Assembly: GCA_036511855.1 (NCBI GenBank)
Contig: DATCBN010000065.1
Location: 1-47,268, forward strand
Reading direction: 5' to 3'
DNA from: Candidatus Eremiobacteraceae bacterium
GTDB lineage: Bacteria > Vulcanimicrobiota > Vulcanimicrobiia > Eremiobacterales > Eremiobacteraceae
DNA length: 47,268 nt
Below, in pieces: positions 15,295 to 32,773 of this stretch. Under the pieces are notes generated by a model. The model saw only the letters and a list, made by a program, of their open reading frames with translations, was not told the DNA's origin and ran no database searches. The position numbers and the translations under genes were made by a program. Numbering within the stretch: position 1 is the first letter of the stretch; each line of letters opens with the position of its first letter.

Positions 15295-18200
15295 CTAGCG
15301 GTTCACCACGGTGCGAGCCTCAGCGCGCCAGGTTTCGTATGCGGCGTGAGCGGCGTCCATCTGCACGGTAAGGCGATCTTTTAGATCGTAGGCCGGCTTG
15401 AGCGGCGGGCCGGCTCCGAGCGGTCCGAACAGATCGTAGAGACGTTCGCGCAAACCGGGTGCGAAGATGAAGATGTCCTCGTCGTTTTGCGGATCGGACG
15501 ACAACTCCGATTCCAAGCGCGCGCCGGCGTCGAGAACCGCACGCGCTCGCGCGAGATCGCTTGCACCCGCCGCGCCGCGCTTCATCATCGACGGCAACAT
15601 GCGCTTGATGCGGGCATGCATCCCGTCGATGTCGTTGAGCCAGCGGTCGATGCGATCGACTTGCGCGAAAAGAAAAGAGGCATACTCGTATTGTTTTTGA
15701 TAGTCGTCTTGCGTCCACGGCGCGCGCGGGTCCGCCTTGACGTCCAGCGGCGCCGTGAGCGCGCGCGACCCGAGAGTCAGTCGCACGGTGTACGCGCCAG
15801 GCACGACGCCGGCGCCGGAGTCGAAGCCCTGATACGGTTTGGGCGCCCACAGCCATTTTGCCGGCCCGTTCTCGCCGAAGTCCCACACCACGCGGACGAG
15901 ACCGGCGTCGTTTGCTATCCACGGCTTCTTCTTCCCGTCGACATCGTGCGTTCCGGCGATCCGTCGAACGACGCGGCCGTTCGCATCCAGGATCTCCAGC
16001 ACGGGGCCGCCGCGAGGCGCGGGTCTAGCCTGGTAGAATGTGATGACCGCGCCGTTCGCCGGATTGTCGCCCGCGTATTCGGCATATGCGTAATCTTCGT
16101 GCTCGAAATAGAAGTACTCGTACGCCGTCTGCGGCGCGAAAAGATATGCGCCGGCCGACGTCGCGGCGGTCCACTGCTGAAGCGGGCGCAGATCATCGAG
16201 GATCCATAGCGCGCGGCCATGGGTGGCGACGATAAGGTCGTCGGATTGCGGCTGCACGCGCAGATCGCGCACGGACGACGACGGCAGATTGAGCTGCAGC
16301 GAGCGCCACCGCAAACCGCCGTCGAACGACACCCACAGCGAGCGCTCCATCCCGGCATAGAGCAACTCCGGATTCACCGGATCGGGCCGTATCGTCTTCA
16401 TCCATTGATCGTGCGGCAAGCCGTTCGAAAGCGATTGCCACGACGCGCCGAAGTCCGAGGTCTTGTAGAGGTACGGCGCTTCGTCGCCGATCAAGTGCCG
16501 GTCGATCGTGACGAACGCGGTGGCGGCGCTGAATGGTGACGGCGCCACGGTGGTGACGTAGCCCCACGGGAGCGTGCCCCGAGGTGTGACATTCTTCCAG
16601 TGCATCCCACCGTCGCGCGTCATCTGAACCAATCCGTCGTCGGTGCCCGCCCATATCTCGCCTGCTGCGACCGGAGACCCGTCGATCGAGATGACGGTAT
16701 CGGCGTATTCCGCGCCCGTCACGTCTTGCGTGATCTCGCCGCCGGGGATCTGTTGGTGAGACTTCACGTTGCGTGTGAGGTCGGGACTGATCACCTGCCA
16801 TGTCCGGGCGCGATCCTGCGTTTGAAAGATGACGTTTCCGCCGAACCAGGCGGTGTGCGGATCCCAAGGCGCGAACGCGATGGGCGAAAACCAATTGAAG
16901 CGGTATTGCTTCTTGTCGAGATCGAAGGCGTAGACGTCGCCTTCGAACGGCGATGCATCGTACGCCTCCTCCGTCCGTTTGTTGAAGATGCTGAGCACGC
17001 CGTTTTGCAGATCGCTCCAGACATAGTTCGAGTCCGATGGGTCGGGAACCGACCACATGCCGTCGCCCCCGAGCACATCGGTCCACTTGCCGTTCAAGAT
17101 CCCGTCGGGGTCCAAGCTGTTCGAGGGTCCGCACAACGACCCGTTATCCTGATACCCGGCGCAGACGCCGTACGGTGTCTGATCGTCGGCGGCGACGTGA
17201 TAGGCTTGGCCGATCGCCAGGTTTCTCGGAAATGACCAATTCCGGCCGCCGTCGAGCGTGAGGATATAGCCGCCGTCGTCGCCGATCATCACACGCTTGC
17301 CGTCGTTGGGTGCGATCCAGACGGCGTGATTGTCGGGGTGCAATCCGCTGGAACCGGTGATCTTCTTGAATGTCTTTCCGCCGTCGCTGCTCGTCGAGAT
17401 CGCTTCGGAAATCGACCACACCTTATCGCGGTTCGCCGGATCGACCGCGATGTGACTGAAATAGAATGGCCGCTGATCGATCAGCGTGCTCGAGTTCACG
17501 AGTCGCCAATGCGCGCCGCCGTCGTCCGAGCGCCACAGATAGCCGTGCGCGGTCTGCACGAGCGCGTACACGCGGTTTGCGTCACTCGGCGCGATGGCAA
17601 GACCGATGCGCCCGAGCCGCATGCCGGTCGGAAAACCGGCCCCTTGGATCTTCGACCATGTCCGCCCGCCGTCGTTCGACCTGTACAGGCCGTCGTGCGG
17701 ACCGCCGCTCGTGAACGTCCACGGCAGGCGGCGGAATTGCCAGATGCCCGCGTAGACCACATCGGGAGCGTGGGGGTCCATCGCCATGTCGGAGACTCCG
17801 CTTTGTGGTCCGACGTAGAGCGTCTTGGTCCACGTCTTGCCTCCGTCGTACGTGGCATACACGCCGCGATCAGCCGAGTCTTTGAATGGATCGCCGAGCG
17901 CGCCGACGATGACGTGATCTGGATTGCGTGGGTCGATCAAGATGCTCGCGATATATTTTGTCTTCGCAAGGCCGGCGTTCTTCCAATTCTTGCCGCCGTC
18001 GTGCGTCACATAGACACCGTCGCCGGCCATCACGTCGTTGCGCGGATTCGCCTCGCCGCTGCCGACCCATACGACTTTTGCATTCTTCGGCGAGATCGCG
18101 ATCGCTCCGACCGACTGCACGCGCTGTTTATCCCAGAGCGGTGACCATGTGACACCGCCGTTTTCGGTTTTCCAAACACCGCCGCCGGCTGCGCCAAGAT

Positions 18201-18423
18201 AGTACGTCTTCGGATCGTCGCCGACACCCGCGACCGCGCTGACGCGGCCGCCGGCCGCCGCGGGCCCTATCGAACGAAACGAAAGGTTTGCGAATGGGTC
18301 GGACGCTGTGTGGTGGGATGACGGCGCCGGTTTTGGATGGGCTCCTGCTGCGGCGCCCGCGCCGAACGCGAGCGCGAGATAGGCCGTTAAGATAGATGCG
18401 GCGGCAGCGGCGGACGGACGCAC
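15295..18423 (-). CDS. Large exported Asp-box (BNR/VPS10-sortilin-type) beta-propeller protein, copy 1
   Basis: The 1042-residue protein carries many Asp-box turns of the form S/T-x-D-x-G-x-x-W, for example THDGGKNWKN, TYDGGKTWTK, SNDGGRTWSK, SDDGGAHWRL, TRDGGMHWKN and SFDGGLRWRS. This indicates one or two seven- to ten-bladed propellers of the sortilin/VPS10 type. The C-terminal 300 residues are a beta-domain plus a helical tail. Such proteins are annotated as glycosyl hydrolases, but no catalytic set is evident. The start is GTG 18423, 7 nt after a perfect GGAGGT (plus-strand 18431-18436); this makes MRPSAAAAASILTAYLALAFG the signal peptide. It is clearly paralogous to the gene at 24881. 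Substrate or partner unknown. Confidence 0.88.
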   Translation of the reverse strand: MRPSAAAAASILTAYLALAFGAGAAAGAHPKPAPSSHHTASDPFANLSFRSIGPAAAGGRVSAVAGVGDDPKTYYLGAAGGGVWKTENGGVTWSPLWDKQRVQSVGAIAISPKNAKVVWVGSGEANPRNDVMAGDGVYVTHDGGKNWKNAGLAKTKYIASILIDPRNPDHVIVGALGDPFKDSADRGVYATYDGGKTWTKTLYVGPQSGVSDMAMDPHAPDVVYAGIWQFRRLPWTFTSGGPHDGLYRSNDGGRTWSKIQGAGFPTGMRLGRIGLAIAPSDANRVYALVQTAHGYLWRSDDGGAHWRLVNSSTLIDQRPFYFSHIAVDPANRDKVWSISEAISTSSDGGKTFKKITGSSGLHPDNHAVWIAPNDGKRVMIGDDGGYILTLDGGRNWSFPRNLAIGQAYHVAADDQTPYGVCAGYQDNGSLCGPSNSLDPDGILNGKWTDVLGGDGMWSVPDPSDSNYVWSDLQNGVLSIFNKRTEEAYDASPFEGDVYAFDLDKKQYRFNWFSPIAFAPWDPHTAWFGGNVIFQTQDRARTWQVISPDLTRNVKSHQQIPGGEITQDVTGAEYADTVISIDGSPVAAGEIWAGTDDGLVQMTRDGGMHWKNVTPRGTLPWGYVTTVAPSPFSAATAFVTIDRHLIGDEAPYLYKTSDFGASWQSLSNGLPHDQWMKTIRPDPVNPELLYAGMERSLWVSFDGGLRWRSLQLNLPSSSVRDLRVQPQSDDLIVATHGRALWILDDLRPLQQWTAATSAGAYLFAPQTAYEYFYFEHEDYAYAEYAGDNPANGAVITFYQARPAPRGGPVLEILDANGRVVRRIAGTHDVDGKKKPWIANDAGLVRVVWDFGENGPAKWLWAPKPYQGFDSGAGVVPGAYTVRLTLGSRALTAPLDVKADPRAPWTQDDYQKQYEYASFLFAQVDRIDRWLNDIDGMHARIKRMLPSMMKRGAAGASDLARARAVLDAGARLESELSSDPQNDEDIFIFAPGLRERLYDLFGPLGAGPPLKPAYDLKDRLTVQMDAAHAAYETWRAEARTVVNR

Positions 18424-18572
18424 GTCGTTGACCTCCATTCGCAATGTGCGCAGATGCGGCCGTGTTATATGACACGGACGGCGCGGACCTGCTCTTGGCC
18501 GCCGCACAGGCCTTGTTTAGCGCGACTCGAAGAACGACGGACCAACTAAGATCGCCCGAGCGAGCCGCCGAT

Positions 18573-20357: not shown

Positions 20358-23153
20358 CTACCTCGTCTTGACTTGGTACGCGAACTCGATCGTGCGGAAC
20401 GGAAGATTGAAGCGCTCGGTCGCGGCCGAGCCGAAGAACGGCGTGTAGTCGCCGTTGCTCGCGCTTGCGAAACGGTTGAGCGCCAACGGGTAGCCTAATC
20501 CAACTTCGTTGCGGTAGTCGGCGTGGCTCTGGAAGACGTTGTTGATGTTCATGCTGATCAGGCGGTCAGCGCCGGCGGGCATCGACAAGTCGAAGTCGGA
20601 GTAGCCGTAGGCGGGCAAGTTGTTCGCATTGTTTTCGGAGAGATGGTAGGTCGATAGGCGCGCCTCAACGCCTCTTCCAAATGCGTAGTCGAACGCGTAC
20701 GAATATTTGTGCAGCGGCACATTCGGGAGCTGCGATCCGGGAATGAACGACACGCTGCCGCCGTGGGCAGGATCGATGAGCGCCGGCTCTTGGGATTGAA
20801 GGACGGCCGACTGCGTGTCGTACGAGTAGTCCAACGACATGCCGCCGATCAGATGCTGCTTACCGGTCAGTTCGATTCCCCGCGCAAACGTGTGGCCGAT
20901 GTTGAGGTTGCCGCCCAACCCGAGAAGTGCAAGCGCTTCTTGCGGCGAGACGCCCGGACACAACGACGAGATGGCGTTGGCATAAGGCGTCGGATCGAAC
21001 CCTAGTACCGGCACTTCGGATAGCGGCACCGTCACGCCATAGATCTGATTGAATAAGTTCGTGTTGTACAGACTCAGCTGGGCGATGGAATCCCCGCCGA
21101 ACCGGCGCCCGTAGCTCAACTCCATATCCGAAGCGCGCTCGGGCCGCAGCGCCGCCGACGGAACGTTGCCGATCTGATTGAGCGACGTGCACGACACGCC
21201 GCCGCCGGTGAAGGCGCCAAGGGAGCTCGGCGAAGTCGGCTGATCGAGATCTTGCGGCGTGGGCTGCGTTGAGGTCTCACCGCCCGCCAATCGCCAGACA
21301 TCATTCGTGTTCGACCACACGAATGCGATGCGCGGGTCGAAGTACGACGTGTTGGTGATCGTCGAGTGCTTGAACCAGGCATTCAGGTACGTGGTCAGCT
21401 TCGCATCGGGCTTGTGATAGGCGTCGCGCAAGAAGAACGCGGTGTCGTGCGTGACGGGCGCCGTTATGGTCGCGCTCACCGGGGCGCCGCGGTATTCCCG
21501 GTACAGCGACGAGGTGTTCTCGTAGAAGAACCCCACCCCGATATCGTTTGCGGTTCCGCTGAAATCGTCCGCGATGCTCGCGCCCGTGTTGGTGTCCTGG
21601 TCGACGTGCCACGACGGGTCGGGGGTCGTGCACGGATAGATCGGATTTCCGCTGTCATCGGTGCCGCACTGGTCCGGCCTGCCAAACGTGCGGTCGTAGT
21701 TGTGGATGTAGAAGTTGGAAAACGTGTCGACCGTGAGCGTGCCGCGACCGAGCTTCGTATCCAAGCCCAGATGGTAGTCGTTGCTGTGGTACGCTTGCCA
21801 AGCCGGACCGGCGCCTTGATAGCCGAAATTGGCCTTCGCAAACGACTGCGGCGTTTGGCATTGCGAGCCGCCGTCGGGGTTTCCGCTGCGGTCTTTGCCC
21901 GGAGTGCCGCCGCCGTTGTTGAAGCCGACCGTGAACGTGTTCGGATTCGCTAGCGTGCACGGATCGGCACCCGAGCCGATCGCGGCCGCTAGATTCCCCT
22001 GGCCGGCGGCGAGCTCGACTTGATAAGGCAGATAGTCGTTGTCGCCGTTGCCCGTTTTGTCATCCCACTCGTTGCTCCCTAAGTAGGCCGCGGTGAGATG
22101 GGTGTTCGGATTCACGTCGTACACGAGCTTCATCAGTCCGCTCTTGTTCACGAAACTCGTGTCGTCTTGATAGACGCCGAGCGCGCGGGTCGACGGGTTG
22201 GTCGCATACTGATCGAACGATGCCGACGCCTGATAGAAGTTGTCGTGCTTGAACGGTCCGTCCAGACCTTGCGTGCCATAGGCGAGCGCATAGCCGAGCT
22301 TTCCGCCGCCGAACGTTCCGGTGCTCTGCACTGCTGAAGAGAGCTTGTCGAACGTGCCGAAGCTCTGGCTGAACGTGTTTTCCGGCGTCCGCGTCGGCGC
22401 GAGGGTCTCCATGTTGATCACCCCGCCGATCGCGTTCACGCCGTACAGATTGCTGCCGGAACCGTAGAAGACGTTGATCGCGCGCAGGCCGAACACCGGC
22501 GAGAGCTCGTAGTTGTAGTCGCCGCGCGGACCGATCGGATGGCCGTCGATCATCGTTAACGTCTCCAACGTGCCGATGCCGCGGATGTTGAGCGAGACGT
22601 CGTCGCCCGGCTGCGATGGATTGCCGCCCTGCAGGCCGGGAAGCTGCTGGAGGTAGTCGGATGCACGATAGTAGCCCTGCTGCTGAAGCGACTGCGCCGA
22701 CACCGTGCGCGAAATCGTCGCGGCCTTTTGTAAGGACTGCGACGCGCGCACGGTCGTGACGCCCAGCACCCGGGCGCCGCTGTTCCCGCCCTGCGTGCGG
22801 TTGATCGCGAGCGTCAGGCCGCTCAGATCGCTGCCGTCGACGATGAATATCTCCGACTCAGTCGTCTCAAAGCCGGTGCGCGACGCGATTATGGAATATT
22901 CACCGACGGCGAGCGACGCGAATTTGAAGTAGCCGTTGAGAGCGGTGACCGTCGACATCGACGTAGGTCCCGCAGTGACGAGCTTGACGTTCGCGAGCGG
23001 CAATCCCGACGTCGCATCGACGACGATTCCCGATACGCTATGCGCGGTCGCGGGTGTTGCGGTCGGAGCCGCGGGAGTGTCGGCCGCCGCGGCTGCACTT
23101 CCGAATGCAGCGAGCAATATTGAACTGATAATAGCTGCGAAGTTGCTGGACAT
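20358..23153 (-). CDS. TonB-dependent outer-membrane receptor with N-terminal carboxypeptidase-regulatory-like domain
   Basis: The 931-residue protein begins with a signal peptide (MSSNFAAIISSILLAAFGSAAAA). A carboxypeptidase-regulatory-like beta-sandwich follows (about 38-115, VSGIVVDATSGLPLANVKL). Next comes a plug domain with LNIRGIGTLETLTMIDGHPIG and YGVNAIGGVINMET, and then a long beta-barrel ending in FRTIEFAYQVKTR. It would import a large or scarce ligand across the outer membrane using TonB energy; no metal or vitamin ligand is indicated. The start is ATG 23153, 7 nt after GGAGG (plus-strand 23161-23165). Its promoter contains a TTAAG-4-CTTAAC-8-TATGAT arrangement also found ahead of the YncE-like gene upstream. 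Confidence 0.93.
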   Translation of the reverse strand: MSSNFAAIISSILLAAFGSAAAAADTPAAPTATPATAHSVSGIVVDATSGLPLANVKLVTAGPTSMSTVTALNGYFKFASLAVGEYSIIASRTGFETTESEIFIVDGSDLSGLTLAINRTQGGNSGARVLGVTTVRASQSLQKAATISRTVSAQSLQQQGYYRASDYLQQLPGLQGGNPSQPGDDVSLNIRGIGTLETLTMIDGHPIGPRGDYNYELSPVFGLRAINVFYGSGSNLYGVNAIGGVINMETLAPTRTPENTFSQSFGTFDKLSSAVQSTGTFGGGKLGYALAYGTQGLDGPFKHDNFYQASASFDQYATNPSTRALGVYQDDTSFVNKSGLMKLVYDVNPNTHLTAAYLGSNEWDDKTGNGDNDYLPYQVELAAGQGNLAAAIGSGADPCTLANPNTFTVGFNNGGGTPGKDRSGNPDGGSQCQTPQSFAKANFGYQGAGPAWQAYHSNDYHLGLDTKLGRGTLTVDTFSNFYIHNYDRTFGRPDQCGTDDSGNPIYPCTTPDPSWHVDQDTNTGASIADDFSGTANDIGVGFFYENTSSLYREYRGAPVSATITAPVTHDTAFFLRDAYHKPDAKLTTYLNAWFKHSTITNTSYFDPRIAFVWSNTNDVWRLAGGETSTQPTPQDLDQPTSPSSLGAFTGGGVSCTSLNQIGNVPSAALRPERASDMELSYGRRFGGDSIAQLSLYNTNLFNQIYGVTVPLSEVPVLGFDPTPYANAISSLCPGVSPQEALALLGLGGNLNIGHTFARGIELTGKQHLIGGMSLDYSYDTQSAVLQSQEPALIDPAHGGSVSFIPGSQLPNVPLHKYSYAFDYAFGRGVEARLSTYHLSENNANNLPAYGYSDFDLSMPAGADRLISMNINNVFQSHADYRNEVGLGYPLALNRFASASNGDYTPFFGSAATERFNLPFRTIEFAYQVKTR

Positions 23154-23216
23154 GGCGAGGCCTCCATTCAAACTCCGAATGATTCTAGATTGAGTATGGA
23201 GGCGGTTGATTAAGGT

Positions 23217-23246
23217 ATCATAATCGTGCCGTTAAGATGGCTTAAG
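23217..23246 (-). promoter_or_regulatory. Candidate promoter and operator of TonB receptor gene
   Basis: Read on the minus strand, this is CTTAAG, 4 nt, CTTAAC, 8 nt, TATGAT. TATGAT (23217-23222) is a good -10. The two CTTAA units are 10 bp apart, one helical turn, and occupy the -35 zone, as expected for an activator such as a winged-helix response regulator. The same spacing is found ahead of the YncE-like gene at 24251-24283. No regulator is encoded nearby. Confidence 0.5.
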
Positions 23247-23275
23247 AACACGACGCCGCTCGAGCAGCCCTTTGC

Positions 23276-24184
23276 CTAGGGCGTGATCTTGAACCCCTGT
23301 ACGAAATCGCCGGCCGTTCCCGACCAGGCAGCCCAGACGTCACCGGTCTTGGTGTCGAACGCGAGGGTATGCACGTCCGGATCGATCTGACGCGTGCCGA
23401 CCAAACGCACGCCCGTCGAACCGCCGTCGTGAAAAACAGTGATAAAACCGCCGCCGGCACATCCGATGTTATGCCGGACGGCATCGACCATGCACTGATC
23501 CGTACGCCGCCCGAAAGTAAGGCTTGCGACGTGCGTTCCGTCGAGGTCGTAGACGGACAAGACGCCGTTCCTCCCCGCGACGTACACGTGGCCGCGCTCG
23601 CCATCGAGTCCGAGACCGTGATTGCTAACGATCTCGGGCGTCTTCACGGTTTGAACCACGCGCAGCGTCTCGGGATCGATCACGACGAACTCGGAGAGGT
23701 TCGCGATGTTCTGGTAGAGCTTGTGCGTGCGGGGATCCACCGCCATGTACTCGGGTTTGTGGCCGGGGAGCGCGACCGTGCCGGCGAGTTTCATCGTGCG
23801 CGAGTCGACCACGAAGATCCGCGTGCCGTCGTCTTCATCGGCGTATATATGATGGTACTTCGCGTCGTAGACGGTCGCATCCACGAGACCCGGAACCGCG
23901 ACCGATGAGACGACCGTCATCGCGACCGGGTCGATGTCGTTCACCGTCCGTTTTTCGCTGTCGCCCGTGTAGACGTGCCCATTCTCGGGGTTCACCGCGA
24001 CCCCGTGGAGCAGTCCGACATCTACCTGTCCGAGGACCGCGCCGGTGTCCGCGTTGACGACCGTGAGCGCACCGCTGCCCGTGTGCGCTGCGAAGATGCG
24101 GCGCCTGTCGGCGTCCGCGCCTAGATAGTCAAAGCCGCTCTCGATGATGATCTTTTGCGGTGGGAATGCCGGAACGATAGCCAC
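23276..24184 (-). CDS. YncE-like YVTN-type beta-propeller protein
   Basis: The 302-residue protein repeats units such as FVVDSRTMKLAGTVALPGHKP, FVVIDPETLRVVQTVKTPE and VVNADTGAVLGQVDVG, the pattern of a seven-bladed YncE/YVTN propeller. YncE-like proteins are often exported, but this copy has no evident signal peptide, so its location is open. GTG 24184 is the start, 5 nt after AAGGAGG (plus-strand 24190-24196). The TonB receptor gene follows on the same strand after 122 nt and has its own promoter with the same operator-like motif, suggesting shared control. A role in binding a ligand or protein partner for the receptor is inference. Confidence 0.82.
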   Translation of the reverse strand: MAIVPAFPPQKIIIESGFDYLGADADRRRIFAAHTGSGALTVVNADTGAVLGQVDVGLLHGVAVNPENGHVYTGDSEKRTVNDIDPVAMTVVSSVAVPGLVDATVYDAKYHHIYADEDDGTRIFVVDSRTMKLAGTVALPGHKPEYMAVDPRTHKLYQNIANLSEFVVIDPETLRVVQTVKTPEIVSNHGLGLDGERGHVYVAGRNGVLSVYDLDGTHVASLTFGRRTDQCMVDAVRHNIGCAGGGFITVFHDGGSTGVRLVGTRQIDPDVHTLAFDTKTGDVWAAWSGTAGDFVQGFKITP

Positions 24185-24250
24185 GATCGCCTCCTTATAG
24201 AACTCGAGTTCGCGCTCGACAGCGGCGTCAGAGTTCGCGAGACGAGTGCC

Positions 24251-24283
24251 GGCATACCCGCAAGGTTAAGAAGACTTAACCTT
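24251..24283 (-). promoter_or_regulatory. Candidate promoter and operator of YncE-like gene
   Basis: The arms AAGGTTAAG (24262-24270) and CTTAACCTT (24275-24283) form a perfect 9-bp inverted repeat with spacer AAGA. Read on the minus strand it gives GTTAAG, 4 nt, CTTAAC, 8 nt, TATGCC, matching the geometry at the TonB receptor promoter. It lies 78 nt before the GTG start. No U-run follows, so it is unlikely to be the terminator of the upstream GNAT gene. Confidence 0.5.
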
Positions 24284-24309
24284 GTCTCGCGGGCAGTGGA
24301 CGGGCGTTG

Positions 24310-24771: not shown

Positions 24772-24880
24772 GCGACCGATTTTCGCCACGCACGGCCTTC
24801 TCGCTTCCAGCCGGCTATTTTGATGGGCGAGCGACGATGCGTAAAGGGCTGCGGTGTACGCTCAAATAACTAAAAATAAC

Positions 24881-27800
24881 ATGATGACGAATATTGTTCG
24901 CGGCGCCGCGCTATTTGCGGGCGCGGTCTTGGCTTTTGTGACGGCGGTAGCCGCTTCCGGCGCGCCGGTCCCTGCAGGGGCAGCCGGTCCGGTGAACCCG
25001 GCTTTTCTCTCCGGCTTGCATTGGCGGCTCGTCGGTCCTTTCCGGGGCGGGCGCAGCGTGGCGGCGACCGGCGTGCCGGGCAATCCGACACTCTTCTATT
25101 TCGGCGCCGTCGCGGGCGGCGTCTGGAAGACGAACGATGCCGGCCGCACGTGGAAACCGATCTTCGACGGCCAGCCGATCGCGTCCATCGGCGCGATTTC
25201 AGTCGCGCCGTCAAATCCGAGCGTCATCTACGTCGGATCGGGCGAAGCCGATATGCGGTCCGACATCTCGTACGGCGACGGCGTGTACAGGTCGGTCGAC
25301 GCGGGCGCGACGTGGCAGCACGTCGGGCTGGCGGACACGCGACAGATCGGGCGGATCATCGTCGACCCGACAAATCCCGATATCGCATTTGTCGCCGCGC
25401 TCGGACATGGCTATGGGCCGAACGCGGAGCGTGGTGTGTTCCGGACCACCGACGGCGCCAAGACGTGGCAAAAGGTCTTGTACAAGGATGAGAACACCGG
25501 TGCGATCGATCTCGCTTTCGATCCGGCCGATCCGCACACGGTTTTCGCGGCTTTGTGGCAGACGCGCAGACCACCGTGGAGTGTCTATCCGCCGTCCAAC
25601 GGCCCGGGCACGGGTTTATACGTGTCGCACGATAGCGGCGCGACGTGGCTGCACATCACCGGACACGGCTTCCCATCCACGGGTCTCGGCCGGATCGGCA
25701 TCGCGATGACGCCGAGCGATCCAAATCGCGTCTACGCGATCGTCGACGCAAAAGCCGGCGGACTTTACCGCTCGGACGACGGTGGCGCGAACTGGAAACT
25801 GCAAGATCCCGACCAGCGGCTGTGGGGACGCGGCTGGTATTTCTGCAGCATCGTCGCGGATCCAAAGGACGCCGACACCGTGTACGTGTCCGACACGGCG
25901 TTTTACCGTTCTAGCGACGGCGGCACTCACTTCACGGCGATCAAGGGCTCCCCCGACGGTGACGATTTCCACCAACCTTGGATCGACCCCACCGAACCGG
26001 CGCGCATGGTCCTTGCGAGCGATCAAGGCACGAGCATCACGCTGAACGGCGGCGTCACGTGGAGTTCTTGGTTCAATCAGCCGACCGGCCAATTCTATCA
26101 CGTCGCAACCGACGACCGGTATCCGTTCGATCTCTTCGGAGCGCAGCAAGACAACGGCGCGGCGGTCGCCGCCACGCAATCCGATGCGCTCGGGCTCACA
26201 TCGTCGGACTGGAGCGCCATCGTCGCCGGCGGTGAGAGCGGCTCCATCGCGCCGGATATGGACGATCCGGACATCGTCTACGGCGATAACGTCACGAAGG
26301 AAAATCTCGCCAATCATCAGATCCAATCGCTCGATCCGACGATAACCTACAAGCAGCTCTTCCGGGATGAGTGGACGCTGCCGCTCATCTTCTCGAAGAC
26401 CGATCCCCGCGTGCTCTACTACGGCCGTCAAGTCGTGTTCCGCACGGCCGACGGCGGCGCGACGTGGCGCGCGATCAGCCCGGACCTGACGCGGCAAGAC
26501 CCCGGCGTGCCGGCCACGCTTGATGCGCCGACCGCCGCGGATAACTTGGGAACGGGACCTCGGCGCGGCGTCGTTTACACGATCGCGCCGTCGCCGATCA
26601 AAGGCGGCGAGATCTGGGCCGGAACAGACGATGGGAAGATATGGATAACGCAGGATGAAGGCGGACGGTGGCGCGACGTCACGCCGGCACAGCTCGGGCC
26701 GTGGAGCAAAGTCGGCATCATCGAAGCGTCCGCGTACGATTCCATGACCGCGTATGCGGCGGTGGACCGCCATCGTCTCGACGACGTGCGGCCCTACATT
26801 TACCGTACGCATGACGGGGGCAAGTCGTGGCGACTCGTTTCCACCGGAATTCCGGTGGGCGCGTTCGTCAACGCCGTGCGCGAGGATCCCGTGCGGCCGC
26901 GCTTGCTGTATGCCGGCACGGAGCTCGGCGTCTACGTATCGTTCGATGATGGCGCACGTTGGCAGCCGCTGCAGCTCGACTTGCCAGTGACTCCGGTTCG
27001 GGATTTGGCGATCCGGCGCGGGTCGCTGGCGATCGCCACCCACGGGCGCGGATTTTGGGTGCTCGACGACCTGTCGCCGCTTTATCAAGTGACATCGCGG
27101 ATGGCCGCCGACCAGACCCGACTGTTCGCACCGGAGATCGCCGTGCGCGTGCGGCCGCATGGCGATCCCGGCGAACGGCTGCCGCCCGAAGAGCCAGCCG
27201 GCCAGAACCGTCCGGTCGGCGCCTACATCGACTACTTCATAGGCCGTTCCGCCGCGAACAAGCCGGTCGTGCTCGACATCCGCGACGCCGCCGGCTCGCT
27301 CGTGCGGCGTTTTGCGAGCACCGATCGAGCACGGCCGATCGATGAAGACTCCCTGGACTTTCCATCGTTTTGGGCGGTGCCCGTTGCACCGCCGTCGGCC
27401 GCGCCCGGCATGCATCGTTATCTATGGAATTTCGCCTACGCCGCGCCGGATATTTTGGGCGAGCCCCCATTCGGTCCGGGAGGGCAAGACGGCGTGACCG
27501 CCGCGCCCGGGACGTACACGGTTAGCCTCTCGGCCGGAGAGCGCACGTACTCGCAACCGCTCACCGTCGAGGCGGACCCGCGCGTCAAGGTCTCTACGGC
27601 CGATCTGTTGGCCCAATTCCGCCTTGCGCGCTCGATCGAAGCGTTGCGCGTGCAGGTGGCGCTCTCCACCGCGCGAGCAAAGGCCGCGCGCGCTCGGTCC
27701 TCTGCGACGGACCGAACGCAAAAGCAATTCGATGCGATCATCGGTGGGCCGCCGGAAGGCAGCCCCGACAATTCGGTGGGAACGCCATCGCAGGATTATT

Positions 27801-27949
27801 CAAGCCTGTGGTACGTGGACGGCGCCTTACAGACGCTCTCCGGTCTTGTGGAAAGCGCGGACACGGCGCCGACCGCCGATGAAGTGAAAGCATTCACCAT
27901 GGACAAGGCGATCTATGATTCGGATGTGCGGCGCCTCACGGCCCTGTAG
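24881..27949 (+). CDS. Large exported Asp-box (BNR/VPS10-sortilin-type) beta-propeller protein, copy 2
   Basis: The 1022-residue paralogue of the gene at 15295 has the same order of blocks: FRGGRSVAATGVPGNPTLFYFGAVAGGVWKT is cognate to GGRVSAVAGVGDDPKTYYLGAAGGGVWKT of copy 1, split here only by a few changes. Asp boxes include SVDAGATWQH, TTDGAKTWQK, SDDGGANWKL, TADGGATWRA and THDGGKSWRL. The signal peptide is MMTNIVRGAALFAGAVLAFV. ATG 24881 follows an A-rich leader with no clear ribosome site; GTG 24854 is an alternative. The TAG stop (27947-27949) lies inside palindromic repeat copy B, so the present C-terminus may have been set by insertion of that element. Function unknown; hydrolase activity is not evident. 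Confidence 0.87.
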   Translation: MMTNIVRGAALFAGAVLAFVTAVAASGAPVPAGAAGPVNPAFLSGLHWRLVGPFRGGRSVAATGVPGNPTLFYFGAVAGGVWKTNDAGRTWKPIFDGQPIASIGAISVAPSNPSVIYVGSGEADMRSDISYGDGVYRSVDAGATWQHVGLADTRQIGRIIVDPTNPDIAFVAALGHGYGPNAERGVFRTTDGAKTWQKVLYKDENTGAIDLAFDPADPHTVFAALWQTRRPPWSVYPPSNGPGTGLYVSHDSGATWLHITGHGFPSTGLGRIGIAMTPSDPNRVYAIVDAKAGGLYRSDDGGANWKLQDPDQRLWGRGWYFCSIVADPKDADTVYVSDTAFYRSSDGGTHFTAIKGSPDGDDFHQPWIDPTEPARMVLASDQGTSITLNGGVTWSSWFNQPTGQFYHVATDDRYPFDLFGAQQDNGAAVAATQSDALGLTSSDWSAIVAGGESGSIAPDMDDPDIVYGDNVTKENLANHQIQSLDPTITYKQLFRDEWTLPLIFSKTDPRVLYYGRQVVFRTADGGATWRAISPDLTRQDPGVPATLDAPTAADNLGTGPRRGVVYTIAPSPIKGGEIWAGTDDGKIWITQDEGGRWRDVTPAQLGPWSKVGIIEASAYDSMTAYAAVDRHRLDDVRPYIYRTHDGGKSWRLVSTGIPVGAFVNAVREDPVRPRLLYAGTELGVYVSFDDGARWQPLQLDLPVTPVRDLAIRRGSLAIATHGRGFWVLDDLSPLYQVTSRMAADQTRLFAPEIAVRVRPHGDPGERLPPEEPAGQNRPVGAYIDYFIGRSAANKPVVLDIRDAAGSLVRRFASTDRARPIDEDSLDFPSFWAVPVAPPSAAPGMHRYLWNFAYAAPDILGEPPFGPGGQDGVTAAPGTYTVSLSAGERTYSQPLTVEADPRVKVSTADLLAQFRLARSIEALRVQVALSTARAKAARARSSATDRTQKQFDAIIGGPPEGSPDNSVGTPSQDYSSLWYVDGALQTLSGLVESADTAPTADEVKAFTMDKAIYDSDVRRLTAL

Positions 27950-28032: not shown

Positions 28033-29532
28033 TTAATCGTGCTCGATGACCGCTTTCGCCGACGACTTCTTCGACTTCGGCGGCAGCGGAGTCCAGTGAT
28101 GACGGAAGTGCTGGTTGTTGTACGCCACGTCGAAGTTAGACGTGAGCTGCTGTCCGAATTGCGGGATCGCGAGCCCGCCCGCGGGCACGTACATCGCCTC
28201 GTCAAATACTCCGCCGGTCGGCGCGTTCGCCACGGCGAACACGCTCCACGCCAGATCGTTGACGAACCCGGTGGTGATATAGTCACCAACCATGAGGCCG
28301 TTCTGGCTCTGCGGCAGCCAGTCCAGTTTCATGGGACCGGCCAACACGATCGCCGGATTCCAGCTCGATCCGCCGTTGTGCGATGAGACGAACCCGACGC
28401 CCAATTGGCACGTGAACTCGGTGCAATTCACGTTCGAGAAGAAATAGAAGTAGACGCCGATGTTGGCCGTCTGTCCGGATGTGCCGGGCTGAACGCCAAA
28501 TCCGGGGTCAAAGTGGTCGACGACGGAATCTTTCGCATCGATCGGCACCCGCTTGACCGGCGTCCACGTGAGGCCGTCCATCGACGTCGTATACACGATG
28601 TCGTTCGAGGTGCAATTGAAACCCCGAAACCGGCAGTCTTCCCAGGAGACGTAGATCTTGCCGTTTGCGTCCATGGATGCCGACGGAAGCGGGCTCGCGC
28701 GGACTCCGCCGGGATCGCCGCCCCAAAAGACTTCAGCCACGTTCACGAGGCCCGACCAAGAATGGCCGCCGTCGGTGGACCGATAGGCGCCGATCCCCTC
28801 GCCGCCTTCAATCGGAACGATGACCGTGCCGTTGGGTTGGACCAGCGGTTCGCCGCCCAGGCCCGCGTCTTGATTTTGGGTGGTGAGCGGACGCGACCAT
28901 GTGGCGCCCCCGTCCGACGATTTGCTCATCATGATGAGATCGCCGCCCGCGGGTTCATCCCATTCGTTGTAGCAGTGACCGTAAAACGGACTCGTCGGCG
29001 TGTTGTCGCACGTGACCCAGTTCTTGTCGGCCGACTGCGTGCGCGGTGCTATGCCGACGGGTCGAAGCCAGTGGATGCCGTCGGATGATCTGCTGATGAG
29101 CACGGCCGGCGACGATGGTAGATTGTTGGAGATCGGCAGCGAGCTCACCAGCCAGACGCCATGTCTGCGGTCGTATGCGACGGAAGGATCGCTCACCGCA
29201 TCGTATTTGTTGTTTGGATTCTGAGCCTTCGTGATGCCCGGCAAGAAACCGAATTTCCACGTCGCGCCCGCATCTTTCGATGTGGCCCAACCGATGTCGG
29301 CACCGCCGCCGTCCACGACACGGCCGGTTTGAAACGCGCTGACGATGATGTTGCCAAAGGTCGTCGTCTCTGGCTCCACTTCCGTCTTGTGCTGGCTTGA
29401 AGGATTGGTGAACGGGTCGGCGCTCACTTTTATGAGAGTGGGCGCCGCAAAAACCGGCGCCGCCGATGATGCCACGCTCGACGTGACGAGAACCGCAACA
29501 GCGGCCACGAAGATGGCTGATTTATGATGCAC
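28033..29532 (-). CDS. Exported sialidase-fold (BNR repeat) protein
   Basis: The 499-residue protein has a signal peptide (MHHKSAIFVAAVAVLVTSSVASSAAPVFA) and Asp boxes TSKDAGATWKF, SSDGIHWLRP, SSDGGATWSRP and STDGGHSWSGL, consistent with a six-bladed sialidase-like propeller. The sialidase Arg triad and catalytic Tyr/Glu cannot be assigned with confidence, so true sialidase activity is doubtful. The start is GTG 29532, 10 nt after AGGAGGAG (plus-strand 29543-29550). It is the third Asp-box protein within 14 kb and lies downstream of the S10 carboxypeptidase pair on the same strand, separated by 134 nt with a hairpin. Confidence 0.82.
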   Translation of the reverse strand: MHHKSAIFVAAVAVLVTSSVASSAAPVFAAPTLIKVSADPFTNPSSQHKTEVEPETTTFGNIIVSAFQTGRVVDGGGADIGWATSKDAGATWKFGFLPGITKAQNPNNKYDAVSDPSVAYDRRHGVWLVSSLPISNNLPSSPAVLISRSSDGIHWLRPVGIAPRTQSADKNWVTCDNTPTSPFYGHCYNEWDEPAGGDLIMMSKSSDGGATWSRPLTTQNQDAGLGGEPLVQPNGTVIVPIEGGEGIGAYRSTDGGHSWSGLVNVAEVFWGGDPGGVRASPLPSASMDANGKIYVSWEDCRFRGFNCTSNDIVYTTSMDGLTWTPVKRVPIDAKDSVVDHFDPGFGVQPGTSGQTANIGVYFYFFSNVNCTEFTCQLGVGFVSSHNGGSSWNPAIVLAGPMKLDWLPQSQNGLMVGDYITTGFVNDLAWSVFAVANAPTGGVFDEAMYVPAGGLAIPQFGQQLTSNFDVAYNNQHFRHHWTPLPPKSKKSSAKAVIEHD

Positions 29533-29666: not shown

Positions 29667-31211
29667 TCAGGGCGAGAGCACGCTGTCGTACCAGCGCGCG
29701 AGATCGGACTTGAATTGTGCGAGTGCGGTGACGTTCATGTACACCATATGGCCCGATTCATAGAATCCGTAGGTGATGTGGTTGCGCAGCGACGGATCGA
29801 GCGCCATATGGTTGAGCGTATACACGGTCCCGAAGAACGGCGTGGCCATGTCGTAGTAGCCGTTTGCTGAAAATACGCGCAGGCGCGGATTTTGCGTCAT
29901 CGCGTCATGCAGATCTTGGACCACGTCGGGGATGGGTATCTGGTTGCCGTCGATGTTGTGCTTGAGGTCCCATTTCTGGTTGACGCCGACGTCCAGCGGG
30001 TCGTAGATGAGATCGGTCTGATATTTCAGCGAAGTGCGCACATAGTCGTTGAAAGCCGACACTTCGGCAGACGCCGAACCGGAGCTGCCGGGATCGTAGT
30101 CCGGGAAGCTGCCCACGGCCCTACCGTCGATCCCGAGGTAGCGGGCGTCAAGCCGGCCCGTGGTGCGGTATTGATCGCGCAGAAGCTCTTTTTCAAACTC
30201 GCCGGCTTCGACGCGCAGGTCGGCATGCCGGTAGAATTGTTCGCTGATGCCGGTGAATTCATAAAGCTTGTGGACGACGTCGTCGCGCTCGCTCTTCCCT
30301 AGGCTCGCGCCTTTGAGCAGCGCATCGGCATATTCGCCCAACGCGAAGTCCTCGACTTGCTGCACGAGCGCCGTGAGGCTGGCAGGTCTATGCGGCAATT
30401 TGTTGTGGTACCACGCGACGGCGGCCTCGGTCGGCAAGTACCCGATATAGGCCGCGTCGAGCCCGTCGCCGTCTATGAACTCGGTGCCGTAGTTCAACGC
30501 GGACGAGAGCAAAACCACGCCGTTCAAGTCCATGCCGCTTTGCTGCAGCATGTTCGACAGCACGGCCGAGCGTGTGGTGCCGTACGATTCTCCGAACAAG
30601 AATTTCGGCGAATTCCAGCGGCTGTTCTGCGTGATGTACCGTTGGACGAACTGCCTGAACGCGCGTCCGTCCTGATCCACGCCGTAGAATTGATCCGGCG
30701 TGGAGCCGCCCATGAGCCGGCTAAAACCGGTGCCGGGCGCGTCGACGAACACCATGTCGGTCTTGTCGAGCAGGCTGTATTCGTTGTCGACGAGACTGTA
30801 AGGCGCTGGGCCTGTGAACTGCGCGTTGGCGATGACGACGCGCTTTGGACCAAACGATGCCATGCGCAACCAGACAGTAGACGAACCCGGACCGCCGTTG
30901 TAGAAAAACGTGACCGGCCGCGTGCTCAAGTTCGAGATGCCGTCAGCGGTGTACGCGACGTAGAACATGCTGCAGGTCGGCCCGCCCTTGGCGTCGCGCA
31001 GCGTGATCGTGCCGGCGGTCGCCGTGTAGGGAATGGTCTTTCCGGCCAGCGTCAGCGAATCGTGGGTCGACGAGTCGCCGGTCTCTCCGCCTGCCGCGGG
31101 CGCAGCCGCCGGCTGCGGTGATGCAGGACCGGGAGGAGCGGCCGCGGCGAACGCGGGCGCCGCCGCGCCGAACAGCATGGTGAATGTGAGGACTGCAAGC
31201 AACGATTTCAT
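29667..31211 (-). CDS. Exported S10 serine carboxypeptidase, tandem copy 2
   Basis: The 514-residue protein has a signal peptide (MKSLLAVLTFTMLFGAAAPAFA) and a Pro/Ala-rich linker (25-45). The S10 fold follows: oxyanion motif FFYNGGPGSS (102-111), nucleophile elbow GESYG with Ser209, Asp454 in NGYYDMATP, and His488 in ESGHMVY. It would remove C-terminal amino acids from peptides outside the cytoplasm, preferably at acidic pH by family habit. ATG 31211 follows TTTGGAG by 5 nt; the longer open frame overlaps the upstream gene and is not used. The upstream paralogue ends 32 nt before, so the two form an operon. Confidence 0.92.
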   Translation of the reverse strand: MKSLLAVLTFTMLFGAAAPAFAAAAPPGPASPQPAAAPAAGGETGDSSTHDSLTLAGKTIPYTATAGTITLRDAKGGPTCSMFYVAYTADGISNLSTRPVTFFYNGGPGSSTVWLRMASFGPKRVVIANAQFTGPAPYSLVDNEYSLLDKTDMVFVDAPGTGFSRLMGGSTPDQFYGVDQDGRAFRQFVQRYITQNSRWNSPKFLFGESYGTTRSAVLSNMLQQSGMDLNGVVLLSSALNYGTEFIDGDGLDAAYIGYLPTEAAVAWYHNKLPHRPASLTALVQQVEDFALGEYADALLKGASLGKSERDDVVHKLYEFTGISEQFYRHADLRVEAGEFEKELLRDQYRTTGRLDARYLGIDGRAVGSFPDYDPGSSGSASAEVSAFNDYVRTSLKYQTDLIYDPLDVGVNQKWDLKHNIDGNQIPIPDVVQDLHDAMTQNPRLRVFSANGYYDMATPFFGTVYTLNHMALDPSLRNHITYGFYESGHMVYMNVTALAQFKSDLARWYDSVLSP

Positions 31212-31243
31212 CTGTGCTCCAAACGGGGTCGTTTCGCGGCGAA

Positions 31244-32773
31244 TCATGAGTGCAGGACCGAATCGTACCACTTGGAGAGGTCCGACTTGAACTGTGCGAG
31301 CGCCGCAGCATGCAGATACACCATATGCCCCGAGCCGTAGTACCTGAAGGAGATGTTGCCGCGCAACGTTGGATCGAGCGCCATGTGGTCGAGCACGTAT
31401 TCGGTCGCGAAGAACGGCGTGGCCATATCGTAGTACCCGTTCGCGGAAAACACGCGAAGCTGAGGATTTTGCGTCATGGCGTCATGCAGGTCTTGGACGA
31501 CGTCCGGCCACGGGATCTGGTTGCCGTCGATGTTGTGGGTTTGATCCCAATCCGGGCTGATTTCGCCATAGTTCGTCGCCTTGTAGAAAAGGTCGGTCTG
31601 ATACTTGAGATCGCCGCGCACGTAGCTATTGAACGCGGACACGTATGCCGATGCAAACGCGGTATCCGCAGGGTCGTAGTCGGGCGTATCTCCCGTGGCT
31701 TTGCCGTCGATGCCCAGGAAGCGGCCATCGAGACGGCCGGTTATGCGAAACTGATCGCGAAGGAGTTCTTTCTCGAATTCACCCGGCTCTACGCGCAGAT
31801 CCGCGTGGCGATAGAAGTCTTCGCTGATGCCGGTGTACGAGTGCAGTTTGCGGGCGATCGCACTTCGGTCGGCATCGCTCAGCGTGTTGCCCTTAAGCAG
31901 CGCGTGGGCGTAGTCGCCTAAGGCGAATTGCCGGACGTCGCGGAGAAACGCGGCTTCATCGGGCGGCCGGTTGGGAACTTTGTTGTGATACCACGCGATT
32001 GCGGCCTCCGTCGGCAGATAGCCTATGTATTCGGTGTCGAGCCCGTCGCCGCCGAAGTCGGTCGCATAGTTGAGAATCGTCGAGAGCAGGACGACGCCGT
32101 TGAAGTCCATGCCGTCTTGTTGAAGCAGATTGACGAGGACGGCGGAGCGAGTCGTGCCGTACGATTCGCCGAACAGAAATTTCGGCGAGTTCCAGCGCCC
32201 GTTCTTTGAGACGTAGGTTTCGACGAACTGCTTGAACGCACGGGCGTCTTGATCCACGCCGTAGAAGTCGGCGGGTTTGGAGAACCCGACGAGCCGGCTA
32301 AAGCCCGTGCCAGGCGCATCGACGAACACGAGGTCCGATTTATCCAACAAGCTATAGCTGTTATCGACGAGCCGGTAAGGAGCGGGCGCCGTGTGCTGTG
32401 CGTCCGCCGAGAGCACCCGTTTCGGAGCGAACGATCCCATTCTCAACCAGACGCTGGACGAGCCGGGGCCGCCGTTATAGAAAAATGTGACCGGCCGCCG
32501 GTTGAGGTCGACATTGCCGTCCTCGGTGAAGGCGGTATAGAACATGCTGCACGTGGGTTTGCTATGCGCGTCTTTGAGCACGATCGTTCCGGCCCGCGCT
32601 GAATATCGGATCTGCCTGCCGTCGATGCCGAGCGTCGCGTGCGTCACGGAATCCTTCGACGCGGGCACCGGCAGCGGCGAAGGTTTTTGCGACGGCGAAT
32701 CGTCGTCTGCGAATGCGGCGAGGCTCGAACCCAAAAACGCGCACAAAGCGAGAATACCGAGTGCTGCTTTCAC
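31244..32773 (-). CDS. Exported S10 serine carboxypeptidase, tandem copy 1
   Basis: The 509-residue protein is closely related to its downstream neighbour along the whole length. It has a signal peptide (MKAALGILALCAFLGSSLAAFA), FFYNGGPGSS (97-106), GESYG with Ser204, NGYYDMATP with Asp449, and GSGHMVY with His483. The start is GTG 32773, 5 nt after TTTTGGAG. The same leader precedes copy 2, so the duplication appears to have included the ribosome site. All catalytic residues are kept in both copies, which argues for two working enzymes with different preferences. Confidence 0.92.
   Translation of the reverse strand: MKAALGILALCAFLGSSLAAFADDDSPSQKPSPLPVPASKDSVTHATLGIDGRQIRYSARAGTIVLKDAHSKPTCSMFYTAFTEDGNVDLNRRPVTFFYNGGPGSSSVWLRMGSFAPKRVLSADAQHTAPAPYRLVDNSYSLLDKSDLVFVDAPGTGFSRLVGFSKPADFYGVDQDARAFKQFVETYVSKNGRWNSPKFLFGESYGTTRSAVLVNLLQQDGMDFNGVVLLSTILNYATDFGGDGLDTEYIGYLPTEAAIAWYHNKVPNRPPDEAAFLRDVRQFALGDYAHALLKGNTLSDADRSAIARKLHSYTGISEDFYRHADLRVEPGEFEKELLRDQFRITGRLDGRFLGIDGKATGDTPDYDPADTAFASAYVSAFNSYVRGDLKYQTDLFYKATNYGEISPDWDQTHNIDGNQIPWPDVVQDLHDAMTQNPQLRVFSANGYYDMATPFFATEYVLDHMALDPTLRGNISFRYYGSGHMVYLHAAALAQFKSDLSKWYDSVLHS

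Follow-up and report, generated by a model that had tools for sequence, protein, structure and literature searches.

Tandem TTAA repeats upstream of a TonB-dependent receptor gene and a YncE-like gene are very likely Pho boxes

What controls two neighbouring minus-strand genes whose upstream regions carry the same tandem TTAA element? The genes lie in a 47,268-nucleotide stretch of DNA from a Candidatus Eremiobacteraceae bacterium, which was analysed at its full length (the window). One encodes a TonB-dependent receptor with Plug and CarboxypepD_reg domains in Pfam (20358–23153, minus strand; ATG at 23153 behind GGAGG), and the other a 302-amino-acid beta-propeller protein with a GTG start (23276–24184, minus strand). 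The propeller has weak NHL, beta-propeller and YncE matches, and we call it only YncE-like because it reaches 46 bits against the YncE profile (NF052280), for which the cut-off is 400. The surroundings of the receptor gene also hold genes for two sortilin/VPS10-type proteins of more than 1,000 amino acids each and a BNR-repeat protein (15295–18507, minus strand; 24854–27949, plus strand; 28033–29532, minus strand), together with two S10-carboxypeptidase-like genes at 29667–32773 (minus strand).

The shared element reads TTAAGCCATCTTAACGGCACGATTATG at the receptor gene (23219–23245, minus strand) and TTAAGTCTTCTTAACCTTGCGGGTATG at the YncE-like gene (24253–24279, minus strand). A preliminary description of the sequence had drawn it as TTAAG, 4 nt, CTTAAC, 8 nt, TATG at both promoters, and this pattern is indeed present exactly twice in the window: allowing up to two mismatches, we found 2 matches, versus 0 in 100 window shuffles. 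Pattern searches of the 3.07-Mb genome located TTAAG-N4-CTTAAC at three places and TTAA-N6-TTAA-N9-TA only at the receptor and YncE-like sites; the pair is therefore not due to chance. The third copy of TTAAG-N4-CTTAAC (L004:1501–1515; G000:C80:2101) precedes an ORF for a sugar-binding-protein-like lipoprotein and has no matching −10 spacing. The description had also placed TTAAG 79 and 82 nt before the respective starts. Measured to ATG 23153 and GTG 24184, TTAAG ends around 88–91 nt upstream, and the earlier distances roughly fit TTAAC, which ends around 78–81 nt upstream.

A Pho box is an element through which genes are switched on once phosphate is exhausted, and the receptor promoter is built like that of a phosphate gene. 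The array reads TTAAGCCATC TTAACGGCACG ATTATGATACC TTAATCAACCGCCTC CATACT at the receptor gene and TTAACTTTCC TTAACCTTGCG ATAACTTCAAC TTGATGCCCCCACGG TATACT at pstS of the same genome, with identical 10/11/11/15 spacing. In the congeneric genomes G001 and G002, in which the receptor gene likewise comes after the YncE-like gene, the receptor promoters read CTTAAG-N4-ATTAAC-N8-TATG followed by GTTAATC; the receptor of G003, from another genus (34% identity), has ATTAAG-N4-CTTAAA-N8-TATG-N5-CTTAAG. At the TATG position, the genome's own pstS and phosphoesterase promoters have GATAAC, that is, a third repeat, and other promoters have a degenerate one (TTGAC, TTGAT or TCACA). Furthermore, throughout the alignment, which includes further matches from the family, a fixed hexamer stands 15 nt beyond the point at which the last TTAA begins. 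The receptor promoter therefore comprises four units at 10, 11 and 11 bp, followed by 15 nt to the −10 element. Repeat 1 (TTAAG, 23241–23245) is conserved in the receptor promoters of G001, G002 and G003; repeat 2 (TTAAC, 23231–23235) lies 10 bp from it and was placed by orthologue alignment and the array model; repeat 3 (ATTAT, 23220–23224), placed by the array model and by its alignment with GATAAC, is degenerate and holds most of TATG; and repeat 4 (TTAA, 23210–23213), which had been overlooked, occurs at the same distance in G001, G002, G003 and others (all minus strand).

TATG, which had been read as the −10 element, thus falls within the third repeat at the receptor gene, and the conserved hexamer lies about 24 nt further downstream. 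We take this hexamer, CATACT (23193–23198, minus strand; 15 nt after the start of repeat 4), as the putative −10 element, given its conserved TAnnCT/CATACT form in receptor and pstS promoters. It is CATACT in the window and the congeners, TATACT in G003, TATGCT in G009, and TAGACT and TACAGT in G010. No array stands immediately before the receptor homologues of G007 and G009 or before one homologue in G010, though this G010 gene comes after a receptor gene that has one.

Pho boxes are generally defined as 11-nt direct repeats that are bound head-to-tail (PMC4415409), and that of Escherichia coli sits 10 bp before a TAN3T −10 element (PMC1906773). With four units at a period of about 11 nt, where at least two are expected, and a TAN3T-type hexamer directly downstream that has C for T at position 1, the receptor array has this form. 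Its matrix score of 18.6, computed from 27 arrays that all come from another family of the class, is the best in the window; the next best site falls below 0, and 20 shufflings of the window gave no score above 10.4. With the window's genus left out of its training set, a unit model gave 19.3, compared with a maximum of 15.7 in 200 shuffles. Although repeat 3 is degenerate, we predict with high confidence that the receptor belongs to the Pho regulon.

The array is linked to phosphate genes across the class. In 117 class genomes, two units plus the −10 element gave 80 matches against 16 for the reversed pattern, and in 14 genomes of the family, three units plus the −10 element (also termed the four-repeat pattern) gave 33 against 0; these enrichment ratios rest on a reversed control that contains a different tetranucleotide (AATT). 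Phosphate genes (pstB, pstS, phosphoesterase or phnD-like) lie at 20 of 30 retrieved array loci, with pstB at 17 of the 30, compared with 1 of 19 neutral loci in the same genomes; the sole neutral positive is the locus with the PstS-like gene of contig C41, a gene that itself adjoins an array. The main pstS promoter has the array in almost every genome of the family, and in the window's own genome the same element precedes pstS, a PF04185 phosphoesterase gene (C15:6975) and a second TonB receptor gene (C41:6581). In several cases an array immediately follows pstB, the product of which ends in KRTEDYITGR(F/Y)G. The hits do not fall at random positions and the element is conserved in orthologous promoters, which bears out the earlier proposal that the regulon can be traced through motif searches and promoter comparison. 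The motif as first drawn fared differently: CTTAAC-N8-TATG showed no enrichment in 101 genomes and is ruled out as the regulon motif, and the suggested enrichment near peptidase genes is not supported.

Several array loci extend this picture. The second TonB receptor (L195; G000:C41:6581–6623) has a carboxypeptidase-regulatory-like N-terminus, and its array-bearing gene is divergent from that of a PstS-like binding protein, an arrangement retained in G002 (L187). In many genomes of another family (L145, L146, L149–L156, L158–L160), the array sits between pstB and the next gene, which encodes a secreted or outer-membrane-like protein, suggesting a second phosphate-controlled unit directly after the pst operon. 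An array in G013 (L139; G013:C43:7471–7513) precedes a gene for a phosphate/phosphite/phosphonate-binding protein (TIGR01098), and phosphonate or phosphite uptake is therefore probably also in the regulon.

The 28 window proteins scanned include no response regulator, and a regulator encoded within the window is rejected as the binding protein. On contig C4, the gene for a regulator of the OmpR/PhoB subfamily (C4:71695–72366) stands in a row with those for a PAS-domain histidine kinase, which matches the PnpS and PhoR models best, and for PhoU, PstS and PstC; this regulator thus adjoins the kinase, phoU and pst genes as a PhoB-type regulator would. Against the PhoB model (TIGR02154) it scores 225 bits, with a cut-off of 296.2, and because it stays below that value we place it by gene order rather than by family and do not file it as PhoB. 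Its top model scores are to YycF and RpaB, below all cut-offs. Its closest solved relative is RegX3, and SenX3–RegX3 is counted among phosphate systems (PMC4415409).

Regulators of this OmpR-type fold number around 20 per genome and TTAA direct repeats are common among them, which, together with the YycF and RpaB scores, leaves some room for another member of the family with a TTAA-type site (PmrA-like or CtrA-like) to bind, the likeness to phosphate promoters being incidental. The PmrA-like consensus is CTTAAG-N5-CTTAAG and the CtrA-like one TTAA-N7-TTAAC; as for a PmrA box, both window sites instead have an N4 spacer and the units continue at 11 bp. Moreover, pstS promoters in almost every genome of the family, and arrays downstream of pstB in another family, repeat the receptor promoter's spacing of four units and its distance to the −10 element, and we consider such a coincidence quite improbable. 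The favoured candidate is the response regulator encoded on contig C4. The preliminary description had envisaged one regulator on TTAA repeats spaced by roughly one turn of the helix, in an activator-like position covering the −35 zone, and had suggested a response regulator; these points are supported. Nothing was found in the direction of a DtxR/Fur-type protein, which it had also named, and a phosphate regulon is indicated instead.

At the YncE-like gene the array is shorter. Two units, TTAAG (24275–24279) and TTAAC (24265–24269), lie 10 bp apart, enough for the two-unit minimum, and a possible but uncertain −10 element, TATGCC (24251–24256; all minus strand), begins 13 rather than 15 nt after the start of repeat 2. 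The architecture is therefore not identical at both genes, as had been claimed, with four repeats at the receptor and two here. Under strict spacing the unit model gave 12.0, versus a shuffle 99% value of 12.3; with the 13-nt gap allowed it gave 16.9 (shuffle 99%, 12.5; maximum, 16.4). The receptor might then have a Pho box while the YncE-like site is a decayed or chance two-repeat look-alike, the genes not being co-regulated in this genome. The off-register spacing, the lack of a third or fourth repeat, the strict score and the absence of the array (unit model) from most more distant YncE homologues fit that reading, under which the TATG match at both sites would be coincidence. We nevertheless think it unlikely: the promoters of both congeneric orthologues are canonical, each having a pair of 11-bp units and, at a distance of 15 nt, TACGCT (scores, 25.0 and 24.5); 21 bases of the window site, counted from repeat 1, are nearly identical to the genome's own pstS promoter; and G029 likewise has an array at its YncE homologue, as do G004 and G011 in the region from which their YncE and receptor genes diverge. 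Given the unit-model scores, the receptor assignment is strong, whereas that of the YncE-like gene rests mainly on the congeners and on the bases nearly common with pstS. Because it has two repeats and off-register spacing, though both congeners are canonical, we regard its predicted membership of the Pho regulon as less certain.

The TTAAG-N4-CTTAA pairs could also be read as RNA hairpins, acting as terminators or mRNA stabilisers behind the upstream stop codons rather than as operators, given that both sites lie just behind stop codons and form more stable folds than shuffled sequences do (z = −3.5 and −3.1). However, no T-run terminator was found at either site and the pairing is lost in orthologues while the repeats persist; hairpin function is disfavoured on these grounds and seems very improbable. 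The fold at the YncE-like site (window 24235–24305) is a strong 9-bp hairpin, AAGGTTAAG-TCTT-CTTAACCTT (z = −3.5), behind the stop codon of a GNAT gene, and is not conserved in the congeners.

We therefore prefer, with a probability of roughly 0.87, the reading that both sites are Pho boxes, very likely of the cyanobacterial CTTAAC type, because of the pstS-like spacing, the cross-family model, the class-wide enrichment, the phosphate genes at array loci and the regulator–kinase–phoU–pstS–pstC cluster. In the mechanism that we infer, phosphate scarcity would lead the sensor kinase encoded beside phoU–pstS to phosphorylate the OmpR/PhoB-type response regulator. Regulator molecules would bind head-to-tail on the TTAA repeats spaced at 10–11 bp, covering the −35 region, and would recruit RNA polymerase to the −10 element 15 nt past the last repeat (CATACT at the receptor). 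The TonB-dependent receptor gene, and with less certainty that of the YncE-like propeller, would thereby be induced as members of the phosphate regulon. Because the repeated TTAA motif is very likely a Pho box, both genes probably serve phosphorus scavenging. More tentatively, and with some doubt, the pair might form a dedicated phosphorus-acquisition module of the class, induced by phosphate starvation and with the propeller as partner, that imports either a phosphorus compound or a cofactor, such as PQQ for solubilising mineral phosphate. The analysis provides a testable phosphate regulon for the class and a promoter model with which to scan its genomes (TTAA units at 10–11 bp, with the −10 element 15 nt further on), and the receptor and propeller, whose cargo has so far been unassigned, become candidates for phosphorus uptake. 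Among open-licence papers, we found none on this gene assignment or regulon model in the class.

In E. coli, yncD and yncE, which encode a TonB receptor and a YncE-type propeller, lie side by side as the two genes do here; the window protein, by contrast, falls far below the YncE cut-off, and we know of no Pho-box control of the E. coli pair. YncD takes up PQQ, according to work cited in PMC10875860. In Flavobacterium, phosphate depletion induces TonB-dependent transporters, including one encoded within the phoBR operon, that share the Plug and carboxypeptidase-like domains of the receptor; induction was measured there and is only predicted here, and no Pho box is described there (PMC8115612). 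The E. coli PhoB box likewise consists of 11-nt direct repeats directly upstream of the −10 element and needs no good −35 element (PMC1906773, PMC4415409), whereas its unit is CTGTCAT and ours is CTTAAN. The cyanobacterial SphR Pho box is made up of three or more 8-bp CTTAACCT units joined by 3-bp linkers, and our array resembles it in its TTAA-core units of this type, the 11-bp period, at least three units in tandem, and the position upstream of pstS and phosphatase genes (PMC1906773); it differs in having one 10-bp step, inter-unit sequence that is not CCT-rich throughout, a different class of bacteria and TonB receptors among its targets. Because the array has the known features of a Pho box apart from that step, and phosphate-induced TonB transporters are known, the mechanism itself is already known; the novelty appears to lie in assigning these genes to it and in the regulon model for the class.
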